Shown here: in pieces, positions 1-4,768 of the stretch
How positions within the stretch are numbered: the first letter of the stretch is position 1
How the letters are laid out: the number at the start of each line of letters is the position of its first letter
Source of the DNA: Chryseolinea sp. H1M3-3
Lineage (GTDB): Bacteria; Bacteroidota; Bacteroidia; Cytophagales; Cyclobacteriaceae
Assembly: GCF_029360725.1 (NCBI RefSeq)
Contig: NZ_JARKMY010000001.1
Location: forward strand, 1,550,001-1,614,000
Length of the DNA: 64,000 nucleotides
Direction: 5' to 3'
The notes under the pieces: model-generated
Seen by the model: the letters and a program-made list of their open reading frames with translations, nothing else
The model's database searches: none
What the model was told of the DNA's origin: nothing
Made by a program: the position numbers and the translations under genes

Positions 1-878
1 CACTTCCCAACGGGATGATATTTTCATTACAGGTACAACTTAATTATGAGTTAGAGCGGGAAATACTTGGTTTCGGAGACCATATTAGAGTACTTTCTCC
101 TGAACGGCTTAAGAGAAGAATAAAAGAATGCCTGACGCATGCCCTTGATCAGTATCAATATGAATTAAGTGAAAACGCCCTGCATGGAGCGATACAGAAA
201 CTTACATACAAAGGGTTCATGATTCTCCACCATGTTTTTTCAAAAAAGGAGATCAATCAGATTAAATCCCGGATCGACTACTATTTTAAGATCAGGAATG
301 AGGAAAACGCTCACGCGATTCGAAATGTCTTGGGCGAAATTCCTGAGTTAAAATCTCTGATTCTAAATGCAAACCTTCTACACATATTGAGAAAAATAGA
401 TCCTAAGCTTTTTTTGACCAAAGCGATCTTTTTTGATAAGACACCGGAGTCCAATTGGTATGTCACCTGGCATCAAGACATAATTATCAATGTGAAGGAA
501 AAAATAGAGACAAACGGTTTTACAGGCTGGACAAAGAAATCAGGGGTGCATGGTGTATGTCCTCCAGAAGAAATTCTGAGAGATACTATCACAATCAGAA
601 TTCATCTCGATGACACCGATGAAACAAATGGTGCCTTAAAAGTCGTTCCCGGCTCGCATAACAAAAAACTGTCTGATGAAGAAATAAATTTGATCACTCA
701 AAATGGGATTCCTTATATATGTGAGGTGGCCGCGTGTGGTATACAGATAATGAAACCTCTGCTACTTCATTCTTCATCAAAAGCCACAAGTCAGAAGCAT
801 CGAAGAGTAATTCACCTTGAATTTAGTACAATGGATTTACCGAATGGATTGAAATGGGCGGAACGCCAGGAATTGTGA
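1..878 (+). CDS. WYL-domain C-terminus fused to phytanoyl-CoA dioxygenase (5' partial)
   Basis: The reading frame is open to the left edge, so the true start lies outside the window. The first ~48 residues match the C-terminal end of WYL regulators: they align almost residue by residue with the end of the WYL protein at 41419-42426 (shared GMI-SLQ, NYEL, VL-P-L and a final YQ). The WYL protein stops there, but this frame continues into a PhyH (Fe(II)/2-oxoglutarate dioxygenase) domain. Visible PhyH signs are the HQD metal motif around residue 154, a GALKVVPGSH segment and a distal LLLHSSS histidine. PhyH enzymes hydroxylate small substrates using iron and 2-oxoglutarate. The fusion is seen; a sequencing or assembly join is the main alternative. 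A regulator controlled by an oxidised small molecule is possible but only inference. Confidence 0.75.
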   Translation, partial: LPNGMIFSLQVQLNYELEREILGFGDHIRVLSPERLKRRIKECLTHALDQYQYELSENALHGAIQKLTYKGFMILHHVFSKKEINQIKSRIDYYFKIRNEENAHAIRNVLGEIPELKSLILNANLLHILRKIDPKLFLTKAIFFDKTPESNWYVTWHQDIIINVKEKIETNGFTGWTKKSGVHGVCPPEEILRDTITIRIHLDDTDETNGALKVVPGSHNKKLSDEEINLITQNGIPYICEVAACGIQIMKPLLLHSSSKATSQKHRRVIHLEFSTMDLPNGLKWAERQEL

Positions 879-1603: not shown

Positions 1604-1894
1604 TTAATCCTTAATCAATCGCTTCACTCTAATCTTAGTTGCCTCTTTATATCCTTTCGCGAGGTCATAGTTCATCTGCGCCTGTAACCAGAATTCAGGG
1701 GTAGTATCGAACGCCTTGCTAAGCTTGAATGCCATTTCTACAGATACGGAATACTCTCCTTTAATAATAGCGTACAGATTTTTTCGTGCAACGCCCAACG
1801 CACTCGCGACCTCGGTGATTGTCAGATTATGTGGCTTGATGTATAATTCTTCAAGAATCTGACCGGGGTGCGCTGGGCTGTGCATTCGTGGCAT
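1604..1894 (-). CDS. higA: HigA-type antitoxin, XRE family
   Basis: A 96-aa protein with the HigA addiction-module layout: HPGQILEELY at the N-terminus, then a helix-turn-helix (ITEVASALGVARKNLYAIIKGE) and the TPEFWLQAQMNYDL signature near residue 70. HigA proteins bind their partner toxin and repress their own promoter. It lies 6 bp downstream of the toxin gene on the same strand, giving the toxin-first order typical of hig loci. A candidate operator lies at 2245-2263. Confidence 0.9.
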   Translation of the reverse strand: MPRMHSPAHPGQILEELYIKPHNLTITEVASALGVARKNLYAIIKGEYSVSVEMAFKLSKAFDTTPEFWLQAQMNYDLAKGYKEATKIRVKRLIKD

Positions 1895-1900
1895 AGATAC

Positions 1901-2173
1901 TTAGTTTAATTCCTGTTTATAATCCAACTGTCGTATCTCTCCATCTATAAAGCGGAACGAAAATGTTCCTACTCCGTGAACTCTTAGGCGATAACTGTTC
2001 GCGCCCTCTTCGAGAATACTAATATTCTTAATAGATAGGTCACGCAAATCTTTCGCTGCATGTATTACGGAAAGCCATAGCAATAAAAAGCCCTTCAACT
2101 CCCGTGATATCCCGGCAGCTGTTCCTTTTTCGAAAAGGCTTTTTAATACGCTATGACGAATTGATACGATCAT
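1901..2173 (-). CDS. higB: HigB-type toxin, RelE/ParE superfamily
   Basis: A 90-aa basic protein matching the HigB fold: MIVSIRHSVLKSLFEKG at the start, an AAKDLRDLSI segment, and the terminal strands with YRLRVHGVGTFSFRF and IRQLDYKQ. HigB toxins are ribosome-dependent mRNA nucleases that cut within codons of translating ribosomes. Here the toxin is the first gene of a two-gene unit with higA. The unit is divergent from the tRNA array whose promoter lies about 150 bp away, so toxin-induced translation stress and tRNA supply could be linked; that link is inference. Confidence 0.85.
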   Translation of the reverse strand: MIVSIRHSVLKSLFEKGTAAGISRELKGFLLLWLSVIHAAKDLRDLSIKNISILEEGANSYRLRVHGVGTFSFRFIDGEIRQLDYKQELN

Positions 2174-2289: not shown

Positions 2290-2330
2290 GTTACCTGTTG
2301 GGTAACAAACAAAAAGTTGTTTTATCTTTG
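2290..2330 (+). promoter_or_regulatory. Operator 1 and promoter of tRNA array 1
   Basis: The perfect-arm palindrome GTTACCTGTTGGGTAAC (2290-2306) is followed after 16 nt by TATCTTTG (2323-2330), a TAnnTTTG -7 box. The usual -33 TTTG is absent; the right half of the palindrome lies where it should be. The second array repeats the same palindrome and the same 16-nt spacing, so this is a genuine regulatory module. Replacing the -33 element suggests activator dependence, but repression fits too. Confidence 0.75.
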
Positions 2331-2348
2331 TATCACAATAAGACAAAA

Positions 2349-2453
2349 ATGAAACCGAGTATCAACTATATCAATCTGAATTCACGCCAGCATATATGCT
2401 TTATGGCGAAGAATGATTATTGGGAATACCCGGGAAGATATTTGCATCTATAA
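2349..2453 (+). CDS. Leader peptide 1 of tRNA array
   Basis: A 34-codon ORF from ATG at 2349 to TAA at 2451-2453, starting about 18 nt after the promoter box and ending 22 nt before an intrinsic terminator. Its composition is odd: it contains 18 of the 20 amino acids (no Thr or Val) and is rich in Asn (4), Tyr (4), Ile (3) and Leu (3), with 2 Lys, 2 Met and 1 Phe. The readable tRNAs of the array behind it are Asn, Lys, Ile, Met and Phe. It resembles the leader peptide of an attenuated operon in which a ribosome samples codons before the terminator. A CCCGGG in its codons (2429-2434) can pair with CCCGGG in the terminator 3' side (2493-2498). No protein function is suggested. Confidence 0.6.
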   Translation: MKPSINYINLNSRQHICFMAKNDYWEYPGRYLHL

Positions 2454-2475
2454 AAATAGATTTTATTATAAATAG

Positions 2476-2510
2476 AAGCCCCGTGTAAATAGCCCGGGGC
2501 TTTTGTTTTT
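2476..2510 (+). terminator. Intrinsic terminator/attenuator before tRNA array 1
   Basis: Stem AAGCCCCG (2476-2483) pairs with CGGGGCTT (2495-2502), closing an 11-nt loop, followed by T-rich sequence to 2510. It lies between the leader ORF and the first tRNA gene, so transcription must read through it for tRNA expression. This position is the main reason to suspect attenuation. Confidence 0.8.
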
Positions 2511-2522
2511 TATAAATATTAC

Positions 2523-2595
2523 GGACACATAGCTCAGTCGGTAGAGCAGGGCTTTGTTAAAGCTCAGGTCGGTGGATCATGCCCATCTGTGTCCG
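2523..2595 (+). tRNA. tRNA-Asn(GTT)
   Basis: Acceptor GGACACA/TGTGTCC with discriminator G, D stem GCTC/GAGC with a normal AGTCGGTA loop, anticodon stem GGGCT/AGCTC with loop TTGTTAA. The T stem GGTGG/CCATC is intact but its loop is ATCATGC instead of TTCRANN. No CCA is encoded. Confidence 0.85.
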
Positions 2596-2606
2596 CTATT
2601 GTACTT

Positions 2607-2698
2607 GGATACTGAGGCTGCTAGGTGTGGCCGCTGGTCCCGATAGTTATCGGGAGTCGCTCCAGAGAATTAGACGGGTTCGATGCCCGTAGTATCCG
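2607..2698 (+). tRNA. tRNA with palindromic insert, identity unclear
   Basis: Acceptor GGATACT/AGTATCC, discriminator G, and a canonical T arm ACGGG-TTCGATG-CCCGT. The gene is 92 nt long; removing the 16-bp palindrome at 2639-2654 leaves 76 nt, a normal tRNA size. The palindrome sits in the loop closed by CTGG/CCAG, the likely anticodon stem. The remaining loop does not give a safe anticodon. Confidence 0.55.
2639..2654. repeat. 16-bp palindrome inside tRNA loop, copy 1
   Basis: CCCGATAGTTATCGGG lies in the putative anticodon loop of the tRNA at 2607-2698. Other copies are at 3081-3096, 3139-3154 and, extended, at 14298-14315. Confidence 0.85.
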
Positions 2699-2704
2699 CA
2701 ATGA

Positions 2705-2758
2705 ATCCAGTCTACGAGTTTACCTCAAGGTTACACAGGTAGTGTAACTAGACTGGAT
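2705..2758 (+). ncRNA. Small three-way-junction RNA element of unknown role
   Basis: A perfect 10-bp closing stem, ATCCAGTCTA (2705-2714) with TAGACTGGAT (2749-2758), encloses a small GAG/CTC hairpin and a 7-bp hairpin GTTACAC-AGGTA-GTGTAAC (2730-2748). It occupies the place of a tRNA in the array but lacks a T arm. It may be a highly reduced tRNA, a processing spacer, or, since its hairpin resembles the GTTACC operator, another binding site. Confidence 0.35.
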
Positions 2759-2769
2759 CAAGTAATTAA

Positions 2770-2844
2770 CACCCGAATGTTCCGCGGTGGCGAATCCTAT
2801 TCAACTTGAATTGGATTGCGGCAGGTTCAACTCCTGCTGGGTGA
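2770..2844 (+). tRNA. tRNA-like gene, anticodon not readable (unit 4)
   Basis: Acceptor CACCCG/TGGGTG (6 bp), T arm GCAGG-TTCAACT-CCTGC and possible D stem GTTC/GAAT. The anticodon region folds either with a weak CTATT/AATTG stem (loop CAACTTG, no U33) or as AATCC/GGATT around a self-complementary 15-nt loop. Total length is a normal 75 nt. Identity is left open. Confidence 0.45.
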
Positions 2845-2857
2845 GTTATTATTTTAT

Positions 2858-2934
2858 CGAGGTGTATCGGCTCACGCTTATACCGTGTTGAAACCGTAGT
2901 TGGTTACACGTTGGTTCAACTCCAGCCACCTCGA
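2858..2934 (+). tRNA. tRNA-like gene, anticodon not readable (unit 5)
   Basis: Strong acceptor CGAGGTG/CACCTCG with discriminator A and T arm GTTGG-TTCAACT-CCAGC. The middle has competing folds: CACG/CGTG around CTTATAC, AACC/GGTT around GTAGTT, and CGTGT/ACACG around a 17-nt loop. I cannot choose an anticodon. Confidence 0.45.
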
Positions 2935-2988
2935 CAAGAAAGTTTAGTTACAATATATATGGACATAGACAAGAAGGCCGGAGAATTT

Positions 2989-3059
2989 CCGGCCAAAGCA
3001 TTAAGGTGATGCTCCTGCCTTTTAAGCAGGAGAACACGGATCGTTACCGTGTGGCCGGA
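2989..3059 (+). tRNA. tRNA-Lys(TTT)
   Basis: Acceptor CCGGCCA/TGGCCGG, D stem GCAT/ATGC, anticodon stem CCTGC/GCAGG with loop CTTTTAA, T stem CACGG/CCGTG with the unusual loop ATCGTTA, discriminator A. Just upstream, GGCCGGA at 2976-2982 could pair with the 5' acceptor strand, an alternative fold that might affect processing. Confidence 0.85.
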
Positions 3060-3080
3060 CATACTGTGTGATATAGCTCT

Positions 3081-3096
3081 CCCGATAGCTATCGGG
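3081..3096. repeat. 16-bp palindrome in tRNA-Ile D loop
   Basis: CCCGATAGCTATCGGG, a perfect palindrome, lies between the D-stem strands of tRNA-Ile. It belongs to the same family as 2639-2654. Confidence 0.9.
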
Positions 3097-3138
3097 AGGT
3101 AGAGCACCATGCTGATACCATGGAGGTTGATGGTTCGT

Positions 3139-3154
3139 CCCGATAACTATCGGG
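3139..3154. repeat. 16-bp palindrome in tRNA-Ile T loop
   Basis: CCCGATAACTATCGGG lies in the T loop of tRNA-Ile, directly after TTCGT. It is a third family member inside tRNA genes. Confidence 0.9.
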
Positions 3155-3173
3155 ACCATCTATCACAACGCAT

Positions 3174-3246
3174 TGCACATTGGCGTAGTTGGTAGCGCAC
3201 AGGGCTCATAACTCTGGGGTCGCAGGTTCGAATCCTGCATGTGCAA
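3174..3246 (+). tRNA. tRNA-Met(CAT)
   Basis: Acceptor TGCACAT/ATGTGCA, D stem GCGT/GCGC, anticodon stem CAGGG/CTCTG with loop CTCATAA, canonical T arm GCAGG-TTCGAAT-CCTGC, discriminator A. It is the best-formed gene of array 1. An Ile tRNA with lysidine-modified CAT cannot be excluded. Confidence 0.9.
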
Positions 3247-3251
3247 CATTT

Positions 3252-3323
3252 GGAGATTAAGCTAACTAAGTAGAAGCGTCCCGCTGAAGCCGGGAAGGAC
3301 TGGAGCGTTACCAGTAGTCTCCA
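3252..3323 (+). tRNA. tRNA-Phe(GAA)
   Basis: Acceptor GGAGATT/AGTCTCC, short D stem GCT/AGC, anticodon stem TCCCG/CGGGA with loop CTGAAGC, T stem ACTGG/CCAGT with unusual loop AGCGTTA, discriminator A. The variable region is only about 3 nt. Confidence 0.8.
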
Positions 3324-3365
3324 CAAGGGCAAGTCTTTATTAAATAAGAATGAATTTTCTTTTTG

Positions 3366-3452
3366 GTGGACCGTGCCGGTGGCGTGATAGCATAGTCGCA
3401 GATAAATGCGTGGCGCAAAGCGCGCCAAGATCGAGGTTAAAGCCCTTCCACG
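3366..3452 (+). tRNA. Degenerate type II tRNA-like gene (possibly Leu)
   Basis: A long variable arm TGGCGC/GCGCCA and a T arm GAGG-TTAAAGC-CCTT mark a class II tRNA. The acceptor pairs only as GTGG(A)/(T)CCAC, and the anticodon loop around GATAAA is short and lacks a clear U33; TAA (Leu) is the best guess. It may be a decaying gene. Confidence 0.4.
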
Positions 3453-3487
3453 CTACAGACATTAAATAAAAAAGTCAGATAACAATT

Positions 3488-3838
3488 ATGAAGTACATTC
3501 AGCATCATATCAATGGCCAGTCTATTGCAGAACTCAGCGCCGAAGGTGTTATGCTCAGCACTGCACAACAATTTCTCCAGATGATCATGGACTCTTCTGC
3601 CGAAGGAATTATTGTTCATCAAGAGAGTATTGATCAAAAATTCTTTGACTTACGAAGTGGTCTTGCCGGAGAGATGCTGCAAAAAGTGGTGAACTATAGG
3701 TTGCGGCTGGCGATTGTTGGCGACTTCTCCATTTATGAAAGCAAAAGCTTGAAGGCTTTTATTTCGGAAAACAATAGGTCAAACGCAATTGTCTTTGTTA
3801 ATACAATTGAGGACGCACTAGTTAGATTAAGTAAATAA
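3488..3838 (+). CDS. DUF4180 protein embedded in tRNA array
   Basis: A 116-aa protein matching DUF4180 along its length. Family signs are a STAQQFLQMIMD stretch in the position of the usual ITDaQ segment, then FFDLRSGLAGEMLQKVVNYRLRLAIVGDF and SKSLKAFISENN. The family has no established biochemical function. It lies between array 1 and the second operator, with no promoter or terminator seen in front of it, so it is probably co-transcribed with array 1; its stop is 7 bp before operator 2. A role as RNA- or tRNA-related accessory protein, or as regulator of the arrays, is suggested only by position. Confidence 0.8.
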   Translation: MKYIQHHINGQSIAELSAEGVMLSTAQQFLQMIMDSSAEGIIVHQESIDQKFFDLRSGLAGEMLQKVVNYRLRLAIVGDFSIYESKSLKAFISENNRSNAIVFVNTIEDALVRLSK

Positions 3839-3844
3839 AAAAGT

Positions 3845-3885
3845 GTTACCTAATAGGTAACAAATAAAAATCATTTATATATTTG
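3845..3885 (+). promoter_or_regulatory. Operator 2 and promoter of tRNA array 2
   Basis: Palindrome GTTACCTAATAGGTAAC (3845-3861), then 16 nt, then TATATTTG (3878-3885). Arms and spacing equal those of operator 1. The -33 TTTG is again missing. The leader ATG begins 5 nt after the box, so the transcript is probably leaderless. Confidence 0.75.
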
Positions 3886-3889
3886 AGCC

Positions 3890-3976
3890 ATGAACAAAAG
3901 ACATTCACATAGCTCGTATCGCCAACCCCAGCCGTCACAACAGGACCGGGAGGACGAACTATGTATGCCTGAATGA
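3890..3976 (+). CDS. Leader peptide 2 of tRNA array
   Basis: A 28-codon ORF from ATG at 3890 to TGA at 3974-3976. It contains Gln 4, Ser 4, Arg 3, Pro 3 and His 2, that is 16 of 28 residues, exactly the amino acids of the tRNAs that follow (Pro, Gln, His, Arg, Ser); Asp (3) and Glu (3) are also frequent. Leader 1 has only 9 of 34 in that set. A GGGAGG in its codons (3948-3953) is complementary to CCTCCC in the terminator 5' arm (4011-4016), which gives a candidate antiterminator. The function is read from context; no homology is known to me. Confidence 0.6.
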   Translation: MNKRHSHSSYRQPQPSQQDREDELCMPE

Positions 3977-4008
3977 TGATCTAGAATACTGTCATTACAA
4001 CTCATACT

Positions 4009-4037
4009 AGCCTCCCTTACCAGGAGGCTTTTTGTTT
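4009..4037 (+). terminator. Intrinsic terminator/attenuator before tRNA array 2
   Basis: Stem AGCCTCC (4009-4015) with GGAGGCT (4023-4029), a 7-nt loop, then TTTTGTTT. It separates leader 2 from tRNA-Pro, the same layout as array 1. Confidence 0.85.
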
Positions 4038-4047
4038 ATATGCACAT

Positions 4048-4122
4048 AGGGAAATGGAGGAGCTTGGTCGTCCTCGCCTGCTTTGGACGCAGGAGACCCT
4101 GGTTCGAATCCAGGTTACCCTA
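4048..4122 (+). tRNA. tRNA-Pro(TGG)
   Basis: Acceptor AGGGAAA/TTACCCT with one A-A mismatch, D stem GAGG/CCTC, anticodon stem CCTGC/GCAGG with loop TTTGGAC, T arm CCTGG-TTCGAAT-CCAGG, discriminator A. Confidence 0.88.
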
Positions 4123-4131
4123 CTTCGTTCC

Positions 4132-4149
4132 CCATAGCTTTAGCGAAGG
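4132..4149. repeat. Dispersed repeat CCATAGC-family, copy 2
   Basis: CCATAGCTTTAGCGAAGG lies between tRNA-Pro and the next tRNA, with imperfect inverted flanks (TTCG/CGAA). Confidence 0.5.
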
Positions 4150-4162
4150 CGAACAAATATTT

Positions 4163-4251
4163 CGGAGAGTAGTCCGTAAGTAGATCCGTCAGCTGACGGA
4201 CTGTAAAAGCGGTGCTTAATCGCCTTGGGTGTTCGATTCGCCCCTCTCCGA
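4163..4251 (+). tRNA. tRNA-Tyr-like gene (GTA) with palindromic insert
   Basis: Acceptor CGGAGAG/CTCTCCG, T arm GGGTG-TTCGATT-CGCCC, a class II variable arm GCGGT/ATCGC and discriminator A. ACGGA followed by loop CTGTAAA matches the 5' half of a tRNA-Tyr anticodon arm, but the 3' strand TCCGT is missing after the loop and instead occurs before it, inside the palindrome at 4185-4200. D-stem pairing GTCC/GGAC uses the same bases. CTTAAT in the variable region gives a rival Leu reading. Confidence 0.5.
4185..4200. repeat. 16-bp palindrome inside tRNA-Tyr-like gene
   Basis: TCCGTCAGCTGACGGA is a perfect palindrome of a different sequence family from CCCGATAGYTATCGGG but of the same length and in the same type of position. 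Confidence 0.85.
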
Positions 4252-4254
4252 CAG

Positions 4255-4315
4255 TGTCCGCCATAGCTTTCACAACGCTGGGCATATTTGCTCTAGTGGC
4301 AAGCGAAGGCGGACA
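4255..4315. repeat. Dispersed repeat CCATAGC-family, copy 3, with 31-nt insert
   Basis: Outer arms TGTCCGCC (4255-4262) and GGCGGACA (4308-4315) enclose CCATAGCTTT and AGCGAAGG, split by a 31-nt insert (about 4271-4301). It lies between the Tyr-like and Gln tRNA genes. No tRNA fold is apparent. Confidence 0.5.
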
Positions 4316-4320
4316 AAAAT

Positions 4321-4392
4321 TCCGGGATCGTCTAAAGGCAGGACGATTGACTTTGGCTCAGTAGATGCGTGGTTCGAATCCCGCTCCCGGAA
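4321..4392 (+). tRNA. tRNA-Gln(TTG)
   Basis: Acceptor TCCGGGA/TCCCGGA, D stem GTC/GAC, anticodon stem ATTGA/TCAGT with loop CTTTGGC, T loop TTCGAAT. The 5' T-stem strand GCGTGG pairs with CCCGC only if one T is bulged. Confidence 0.85.
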
Positions 4393-4398
4393 CATATG

Positions 4399-4472
4399 GT
4401 GATGTAACGCAAACTGGCTTCGCGGCAAGATTGTGGATCTTGTGTTTATGAGTTCGAGCCTCATGCATCACC
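4399..4472 (+). tRNA. tRNA-His(GTG)
   Basis: Acceptor GTGATGT/GCATCAC, with G at 4398 (position -1) facing C at 4472 (position 73), the identity pair of tRNA-His. Anticodon stem CAAGA/TCTTG with loop TTGTGGA; T arm ATGAG-TTCGAGC-CTCAT. Confidence 0.9.
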
Positions 4473-4480
4473 CTTGTTAT

Positions 4481-4553
4481 TGCTCTGTCGTCTAATGGAT
4501 GAGGATACAAGGCTACGGACCTTGGGATGCGAGTTCGAATCTTGCCAGGGCAG
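4481..4553 (+). tRNA. tRNA-Arg(ACG)
   Basis: Acceptor TGCTCTG/CAGGGCA, anticodon stem CAAGG/CCTTG with loop CTACGGA, T arm GCGAG-TTCGAAT-CTTGC, discriminator G. A34 would need deamination to inosine to read CGU/CGC/CGA. Confidence 0.9.
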
Positions 4554-4558
4554 CAAAT

Positions 4559-4642
4559 AGAGGGTATCCGGCCGGATGAGGAGCTTGTCTTGAAAACAAG
4601 TAACGGGTAACGCCGTTGTGAGTTCGAGTCTCACACCCTCTA
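4559..4642 (+). tRNA. tRNA-Ser(TGA)
   Basis: Acceptor AGAGGGT/ACCCTCT, anticodon stem CTTGT/ACAAG with loop CTTGAAA, class II variable arm with ACGG/CCGT, T arm GTGAG-TTCGAGT-CTCAC. The discriminator is A rather than the usual G for Ser. It is the last gene of array 2; an A/T-rich inverted repeat at about 4670-4690 might end the transcript. Confidence 0.88.
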
Positions 4643-4768
4643 CAATTTTCTTAAATCAACCTCCAATAAAGATTTTTCCAAAAAATCTCTCCCACCTTGG
4701 TACCAACTATGTAGTTTCCCTCTTTTTCATCGTGCACTTTTGAATCATAACAAATCAACGAGTGCATT

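Follow-up and report, generated by a model that had tools for sequence, protein, structure and literature searches.

Two tRNA gene arrays in a Chryseolinea genome, each behind a candidate leader-peptide attenuator

The locus described here lies near the left end of a stretch of 64,000 nucleotides from Chryseolinea sp. H1M3-3 (contig NZ_JARKMY010000001.1, positions 1,550,001 to 1,614,000), which we call the window and number from its first letter. It carries two consecutive tRNA arrays, and in both modules an operator-like palindrome is followed by a TAnnTTTG box, a short open reading frame (ORF), an intrinsic terminator and the tRNA genes. This arrangement had been proposed in a first-pass annotation and was confirmed by the coordinates and by ARAGORN and Rfam tRNA calls. 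ARAGORN predicted 10 tRNA genes between 2523 and 4643 (2.1 kb), 7 of which pass the Rfam tRNA cut-off; the array of a related locus, L013, has 17 ARAGORN genes. As the home genome has tRNA genes elsewhere for every array anticodon, those of the altered genes included, the arrays are supplementary. The two modules consist of the following features:

2290..2306, no strand: operator-like palindrome 1, exact copy
2323..2330, plus strand: TAnnTTTG promoter box 1, 16 nt after palindrome 1
2349..2453, plus strand: leader ORF 1, 34 codons, with 18 of the 20 amino acids past the start codon
2475..2501, plus strand: intrinsic terminator 1, beginning 21 nt past the leader 1 stop codon
2523..2596, plus strand: tRNA-Asn(GTT) (ARAGORN, Rfam)
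2607..2699, plus strand: Asp-type tRNA gene split by a 16-bp palindromic element (ARAGORN "Gly(ccc)"; by-eye comparison with L013)
2989..3060, plus strand: tRNA-Lys(TTT) with an unusual T loop (ARAGORN, Rfam, alignment)
about 3067..3168, plus strand: Ile-type tRNA gene with palindromic inserts in the D and T loops (by eye; intact copy in L085)
3174..3247, plus strand: tRNA-Met(CAT) (ARAGORN, Rfam)
3252..3324, plus strand: X4, a Phe-like (GAA) tRNA gene with an unusual T loop, uncalled by ARAGORN (sequence; relatives aligned)
3845..3861, no strand: operator-like palindrome 2, exact copy
3878..3885, plus strand: TAnnTTTG promoter box 2, 16 nt after palindrome 2
3890..3976, plus strand: leader ORF 2, 28 codons, MNKRHSHSSYRQPQPSQQDREDELCMPE
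3948..3953, plus strand: GGGAGG within leader 2, complementary to the 5' arm of terminator 2
4009..4029, plus strand: intrinsic terminator 2, beginning 32 nt past the leader 2 stop codon
4048..4123, plus strand: tRNA-Pro(TGG) (ARAGORN, Rfam)
4163..4252, plus strand: Tyr-type tRNA gene with a palindromic replacement (ARAGORN "???"; by-eye comparison with L085)
4320..4393, plus strand: tRNA-Gln(TTG) (ARAGORN, Rfam)
4399..4473, plus strand: tRNA-His(GTG) (ARAGORN, Rfam)
4481..4554, plus strand: tRNA-Arg(ACG) (ARAGORN, Rfam)
4559..4643, plus strand: tRNA-Ser(TGA) (ARAGORN; Rfam search at E up to 2)

TAnnTTTG we take to be the Bacteroidota promoter consensus. The spacing of 16 nt from palindrome to box, which the annotation had stressed, is exact in both window copies but ranges from 15 to 18 nt in relatives and is thus not conserved; in two module-2 copies (L133 and L134) the expected position has no such box. 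The 5' arm of terminator 1 reads CCCCGTG in the window and CCCCGGG in relatives. The palindrome by itself is not rarer than chance: the 6.88-Mb genome holds one further exact copy besides the two in the window (3 exact matches, compared with 5 for the reversed control), and with up to 2 mismatches we found 4 matches where 1.26 were expected, a number reached by 6 of 100 shuffles. Its weight comes from its conservation at the same position in relatives and not from rarity.

A scan of genome contigs for the palindrome and box returned 90 stretches, seven of which represent the same locus (L013, L018, L035, L063, L064, L085 and L089). Searching with X4 gave matches in 8 of 195 genomes of the Chryseolinea family and added four new loci, L149 to L152. 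We thus have a first family of 12 loci including the window. Absence from related genomes had been named beforehand as grounds for rejecting the design, and the module is present in 11 related loci; all 11 keep the order of leader, terminator and RNA genes, 10 of them with ARAGORN tRNA genes, and L152, with no ARAGORN tRNA, retains a leader together with a terminator and two tRNA-like RNAs. In L149, one leader remains ahead of a merged array, and L131 has a third leader, MITTTLLTLSESSSLLQLDSG, placed without a promoter box between tRNA-Arg and the genes for Leu, Leu, Leu, Ser and Ser. In L013 (4490-4600), the array is followed by a second, degenerate copy of the region with the Leu/Ser leader. 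The first family is rare, as the X4 19-mer matched only 1 of 395 class genomes; class-wide (1/395) and order-wide (1/194) searches matched the home or query genome only. The palindrome-promoter pattern occurred in 4 of 390 order genomes, the three others without tRNA, and in viral contigs it gave 22 stretches, none with tRNA, which we set aside. The exact X4 23-mer was absent from viral contigs, and arrays of the window and L091 type had no match among plasmids and matched phages only in single stretches of tRNA size.

A second family was met by chance in the palindrome scan, on a Flavobacteriaceae contig (L091) carrying two leader/terminator units and seven ARAGORN tRNA genes. Its Tyr-Asp stretch, used as query, found matches in 16 of 175 relatives, from which 14 regions were fetched, the query genome and G1608 (short contigs) not being among them. 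Eleven of the 14 regions proved to be arrays, with two leader/terminator units followed by 5 to 17 tRNA genes, giving 12 arrays together with L091; the remaining three (L235, L237 and L240) have a single tRNA-Tyr each and were left out. Leaders of this family were taken as the homologous ORF among those ending near a terminator, a rule that wrongly picked one candidate in L240 and proposed additional ones at other loci. The flavobacterial arrays follow the same logic as the window family and share no recognisable sequence similarity with it. Between leader units A and B, a motif GAGAGACAG followed by a short hairpin is seen in L242 (2770-3100) and L138 (9560-9820) and is perhaps another RNA. 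Upstream of the flavobacterial leaders, L138 (10360-11080) also encodes small peptides with a GG-type leader that, judged by eye, look like bacteriocin precursors; one of these genes gave rise to the chance palindrome match.

The codons of the leaders agree with the content of the arrays behind them. Counting each amino acid of each array as a pair with its module, leader codons cover 178 of 182 pairs in the two families (L138 B counted once). A test on 21 modules included L138 B and excluded L138 A, and L151 leader 1 and L152 leader 1 were excluded as having no array tRNA. In these 21 modules, 70 of 70 pairs are covered with strict ARAGORN sets, a result reached by 18 of 100,000 permutations of the sets among modules, and 88 of 88 when tRNAs recognised by eye are added (0 of 100,000). 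With one representative per clade (14 modules) the counts are 49 of 49 and 61 of 61, reached by 33 and 2 of 100,000 permutations, respectively. The flavobacterial B leaders cover 114 of 118 pairs in 12 arrays, where a Fisher value of 1.4e-8 is confounded by amino-acid frequency. The share of own-array residues was matched by none of 200,000 permutations in the 21 modules and by 338 of 40,320 in eight module-2-type representatives with strict sets. In the window, array 2 supplies Pro, Gln, His, Arg, Ser and an altered Tyr, and 17 of the 27 residues of leader 2 belong to this set (Tyr counted), in comparison with 6.8 expected from the composition of long window ORFs only. In L151, array 2 consists of Pro and Arg and leader 2 contains VRQPRRPFLP; the third leader of L131 has Leu or Ser at 11 of 20 residues and is followed by three Leu and two Ser genes; the single leader of L149 has Pro, His, Arg, Asn, Lys and Phe codons. 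tRNA supply correlates with amino-acid enrichment in three of four leader sets (rho 0.66, 0.61 and 0.48).

A terminator-like hairpin with a T run follows all 24 leaders examined and the 22 added flavobacterial leaders, though leaders were sought beside terminators and this presence is partly by selection. For each codon position we folded the RNA freed downstream of a stalled ribosome up to the loop of the terminator, the terminators being chosen by eye. In window leader 2, the terminator 5' arm is predicted to be 90-98% paired upstream with the A site at codons 2-16 and 0-37% paired over most later codons, a switch of 0.96 compared with 0.35 in shuffled sequences and equalled in none of 100. 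The mean switch in the 24 leaders was 0.48 against 0.24 for shuffled ORFs, and the 22 flavobacterial leaders gave 0.52 and 0.49 against 0.27 and 0.23; in total, 43 of 46 leaders lie above their shuffle mean (21 of 24 and 22 of 22). The own-array residues are concentrated ahead of the complementary segment: in 11 module-2-type leaders they make up 88 of 202 residues upstream and 18 of 98 downstream, and in representatives 63 of 153 and 13 of 69 (Fisher p 0.0007). A T-box riboswitch is not indicated, as Rfam gave no T-box match at the gathering cut-off or at E up to 2, and no Rfam leader family reached its cut-off (His_leader 22.6 bits vs 49).

What can be read from the sequences themselves, that is, the anatomy, its conservation, the agreement between codons and array content and the complementarity, together with the computed dependence of pairing on ribosome position, makes us rather confident that each array would be controlled by ribosome-mediated transcription attenuation, by which a shortage of tRNAs would be sensed and reserve tRNAs released. 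RNA polymerase would start at the TAnnTTTG promoter, beside a palindrome probably bound by the antitoxin HigA, and a ribosome would translate the leader. A ribosome at the stop codon would cover the leader segment complementary to the 5' arm of the terminator, allowing the terminator to form and keeping the tRNA genes off; one stalled upstream for lack of charged tRNA would leave that segment to pair with the terminator arm, and transcription would enter the tRNA genes. The tRNAs of their own arrays are what leader 2 and, in C. histidini, the third leader mainly sample; leader 1 and the flavobacterial leaders sample most amino acids. We infer that the leaders are translated, that ribosomes stall when tRNAs are depleted, that HigA binds and that the system has a role in damage, the arrays being a reserve released upon tRNA shortage, most likely after tRNA cleavage; judging from neighbouring genes and from analogy, tRNA damage is probably the physiological cue. 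Leader 2, leader 3 and the flavobacterial leaders give the attenuator good support, and for leader 1 it is plausible. The annotation's claim of a selected leader-peptide attenuator before each array is supported, as leader codons, the place of the antiterminator and the content of the arrays fit together in two families of unrelated sequence, but is weakened by the switch of window leader 1.

Several results weigh against this attenuator model. Only 21 of 46 leaders individually reach the 5% level (12 of 24 and, among the flavobacterial ones, 9 of 22). The switch is no better than in shuffles in window leader 1 (67 of 100), L151 leader 1 (53 of 100) and L152 leader 1 (83 of 100), and leader-terminator complementarity is not significant in every leader (302 of 500 shuffles for window leader 1). 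Window leader 1 has 12 of 33 residues in the extended array-1 set where 10.7 are expected, supply and enrichment are poorly correlated for leader 1 (rho 0.25; 683 of 5,000 permutations), and its comparison with L132 gives 0.5 synonymous and 6.5 non-synonymous differences, showing no purifying selection, in a count from which two of seven pairs were discarded (gapless alignment). The uncovered pairs are Trp in L236, L238 and L241 and Arg in L238; the flavobacterial within-set permutation value is only 3959 of 100,000, and loci within a family are related, so that permutation values are not true probabilities. Gln is kept in leaders whose arrays have lost tRNA-Gln. Finally, Cys makes up 58 of 1,584 residues in the 46 leaders (3.7% vs 0.6% in the background; Ala, Val and Thr are low) and stays enriched in leaders whose arrays lack a tRNA-Cys gene, and the simple model gives no account of this.

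Some of these results would be expected if the attenuators reported general ribosome stalling or slow translation, for example under antibiotics, without selectivity for the encoded tRNAs. Such a sensor would explain why leader 1 shows no preference for array 1 and why several leaders hold nearly all amino acids: L242 B has all 20 within the 40 residues that follow its start codon (P 0.002 relative to windows taken from 161 real proteins of many loci), and 19 occur in L232 A, L242 A, L243 A, L243 B, L244 A and L244 B, most other leaders being unremarkable. Moreover, whichever upstream codon the ribosome stalls at, the switch is freed in the model. We nevertheless consider this explanation unlikely, as module-2 and module-3 leaders match their arrays (Pro and Arg in L151, Leu and Ser in L131), the cognate codons sit upstream of the switch, and Ala and Val are scarce in leaders whose arrays have no tRNA for them. 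It is less probable still that the arrays are decayed islands of mostly pseudogene tRNAs with leftover terminators. Palindromic inserts and deletions do affect array genes (Asp, Ile and Tyr in the window, Pro and His in L063, His in L130) and L152 lacks any ARAGORN tRNA, but other tRNA genes are intact, the tRNA-like RNAs keep paired changes and the leaders keep pace with array content. Marginally less probable again, and the least so of the three, is that the ORFs encode functional micropeptides, with terminators ending separate small transcripts and tRNA genes expressed independently. The differences between close pairs of leader 2 are mostly synonymous (7 synonymous and 5 non-synonymous in two pairs) and some leaders are conserved (FRP, KGGYVY); against this, the peptides vary with the arrays and have no sequence common to both families, the nucleotides conserved in leaders are complementary to terminator sequence, and L131 leader 3 sits within an array with no promoter box.

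The trp and his leaders are ribosome-mediated transcription attenuators of amino-acid operons. Attenuation as proposed here would have in common with them a short leader ORF with control codons, an intrinsic terminator, a competing upstream pairing and the position of the ribosome as signal; it differs in that the output is tRNA genes and not biosynthesis genes, and in that leaders sample many amino acids, up to 20. Mycobacterial tRNA array units (PMC5966550, PMC12803027) and phage tRNA clusters resemble our arrays in their dense extra tRNA genes, and a role against tRNA depletion has been proposed for the phage clusters (PMC10264068, PMC11555353). Unlike our loci with their proposed leader-terminator control, the mycobacterial arrays are described, in the passages of PMC12803027 searched, with no mention of "leader", "attenuat" or "promoter". 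The RtcR-controlled RNA repair operon has repair genes beside tRNA-like RNAs and is induced by tRNA damage, and its authors raise the possibility of nuclease inhibition by a tRNA-like Y RNA (PMC7790460). There a protein senses RNA ends, whereas here the sensor would be a ribosome on a leader ORF, and the enzymes differ, being a PF09414 ligase with HD-Pnk, or RLIG1 with cREC, in our loci. Our literature search found no report joining tRNA arrays with leader-peptide attenuation, though a 2016 RNA repair review might describe such neighbourhoods; tRNA arrays and attenuators are each of known kinds, and their combination is unreported in the literature searched, as far as its accessible parts go. 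If the proposal is true, tRNA genes would be regulated by shortage of the tRNAs themselves through a simple RNA switch, which would account for costly spare arrays staying silent until needed; the loci would offer a direct test of the proposal that tRNA arrays counter tRNA-cleaving attack, and a leader containing 19 or 20 amino acids would lend itself to sensing the tRNA pool as a whole. More tentatively, and at slightly less than an even chance, the loci may represent a Bacteroidota RNA-damage response with the ribosome as sensor: leaders sampling most or all amino acids would monitor the tRNA pool, and any gap in it would free a reserve of divergent tRNAs along with tRNA-like RNAs, possible decoys for anticodon nucleases. 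RNA ligases, kinases and an RNase H-like protein would belong to the same response, which would have arisen, or been exchanged, in two or more forms that show no detectable sequence similarity.

Besides the Phe-like X4, array 1 has tRNA-like RNAs that ARAGORN misses, and a few further features lie among its genes and behind them:

2705..2758, plus strand: X1, three-helix RNA (alignment of 4 sequences)
2770..2846, plus strand: X2, tRNA-like RNA in which a variable hairpin replaces the anticodon arm (alignment)
2858..2935, plus strand: X3, tRNA-like RNA (Rfam tRNA 27.4 bits, cut-off 29)
2959..3009, plus strand: conserved mini-ORF MDIDKKAGEFPAKALR, 16 codons, rich in Lys codons and ending inside the tRNA-Lys gene (sequence, alignment)
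3375..3458, plus strand: X5, tRNA-like RNA with a long variable hairpin (alignment)
3488..3838, plus strand: DUF4180 protein (profile match)

X1 to X5 (2705-2935 and 3252-3458) are structured RNAs conserved in the family with paired changes, several being tRNA-like without a normal anticodon or D arm, and are possible decoys; in the X5 alignment, 8 of 21 pairs have changed on both sides and 0 of 229 cells are unpaired. A hairpin ahead of the tRNA-Lys gene could rival that gene's acceptor stem. Perfect short palindromes (CCCGATANNTATCGGG, TCCGTCAGCTGACGGA) within tRNA genes of the window (2639-2654, 3081-3096, 3139-3154 and 4185-4200) occupy anticodon, D and T loops, with similar ones in array genes of L013, L063 and L151, and look like small mobile repeats breaking tRNA genes. 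In L139 (8440-8900, minus strand), tRNA-like fragments lie upstream of a WYL gene, and one of them (G000:C1:1548447-1548505) passes the Rfam tRNA cut-off.

Three protein genes lie to the left of the arrays:

15..878, plus strand: C-terminal part of a WYL-PhyH fusion protein whose gene starts upstream of the window (homologue in L133)
1604..1894, minus strand: HigA-like antitoxin (HTH_3), proposed binder of the palindrome (profile match; palindrome co-occurs with HigBA)
1901..2173, minus strand: HigB-like toxin (below the Pfam cut-off, 20.2 of 27 bits)

As in HigBA toxin-antitoxin operons, there are HigA and HigB genes, here upstream of and divergent from array 1; unlike in those operons, each of the two array promoters has the palindrome, so that HigA would regulate tRNA genes. 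All 9 loci with HigBA have the palindrome and none of the 3 without HigBA does; most of the nine were found via the palindrome, and among the eight loci of the X4 search it is in all 5 with HigBA and in none of the 3 others (1 in 56 by a one-sided Fisher test). Since the palindrome tracks HigBA while the WYL gene does not, HigA probably binds the palindromes at the array promoters; the WYL protein is a less likely operator binder, with L149 having WYL and no palindrome and L130 and L150 the palindrome and no WYL.

Genes for RNA ligase, HD-Pnk or cREC lie near 10 of 24 loci of both families, in neighbouring stretches that vary in length, so that absences are not firm. A PF09414 RNA ligase stands beside 6 of 12 first-family loci, in four of them with HD-Pnk (L133, L134, L149 and L153), and of six first-family loci tested (L130, L131, L133, L139, L149 and L151) a cREC-like match was found near L131. 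Eleven of the 12 second-family arrays are followed by an RNaseH_like gene (PF04308); three arrays of this family have cREC nearby, one an RLIG1-type ligase and two weak ligase matches. The window locus has no repair gene within the stretches searched. HD-Pnk alone does not predict arrays: its homologues outside the family, present in 6 of 295 genomes, have no array beside them, and one has three ordinary-looking tRNA genes nearby while five have none. A place of the arrays on a mobile element is not supported as it stands: a relaxase/MobC-like region starts about 2.5 kb to their right, while the left flank, including HigBA and the WYL gene, occurs in relatives as well. To the right of the relaxase region, the window encodes a 974-amino-acid protein with a PIN domain (PF16289; 11198-14122).

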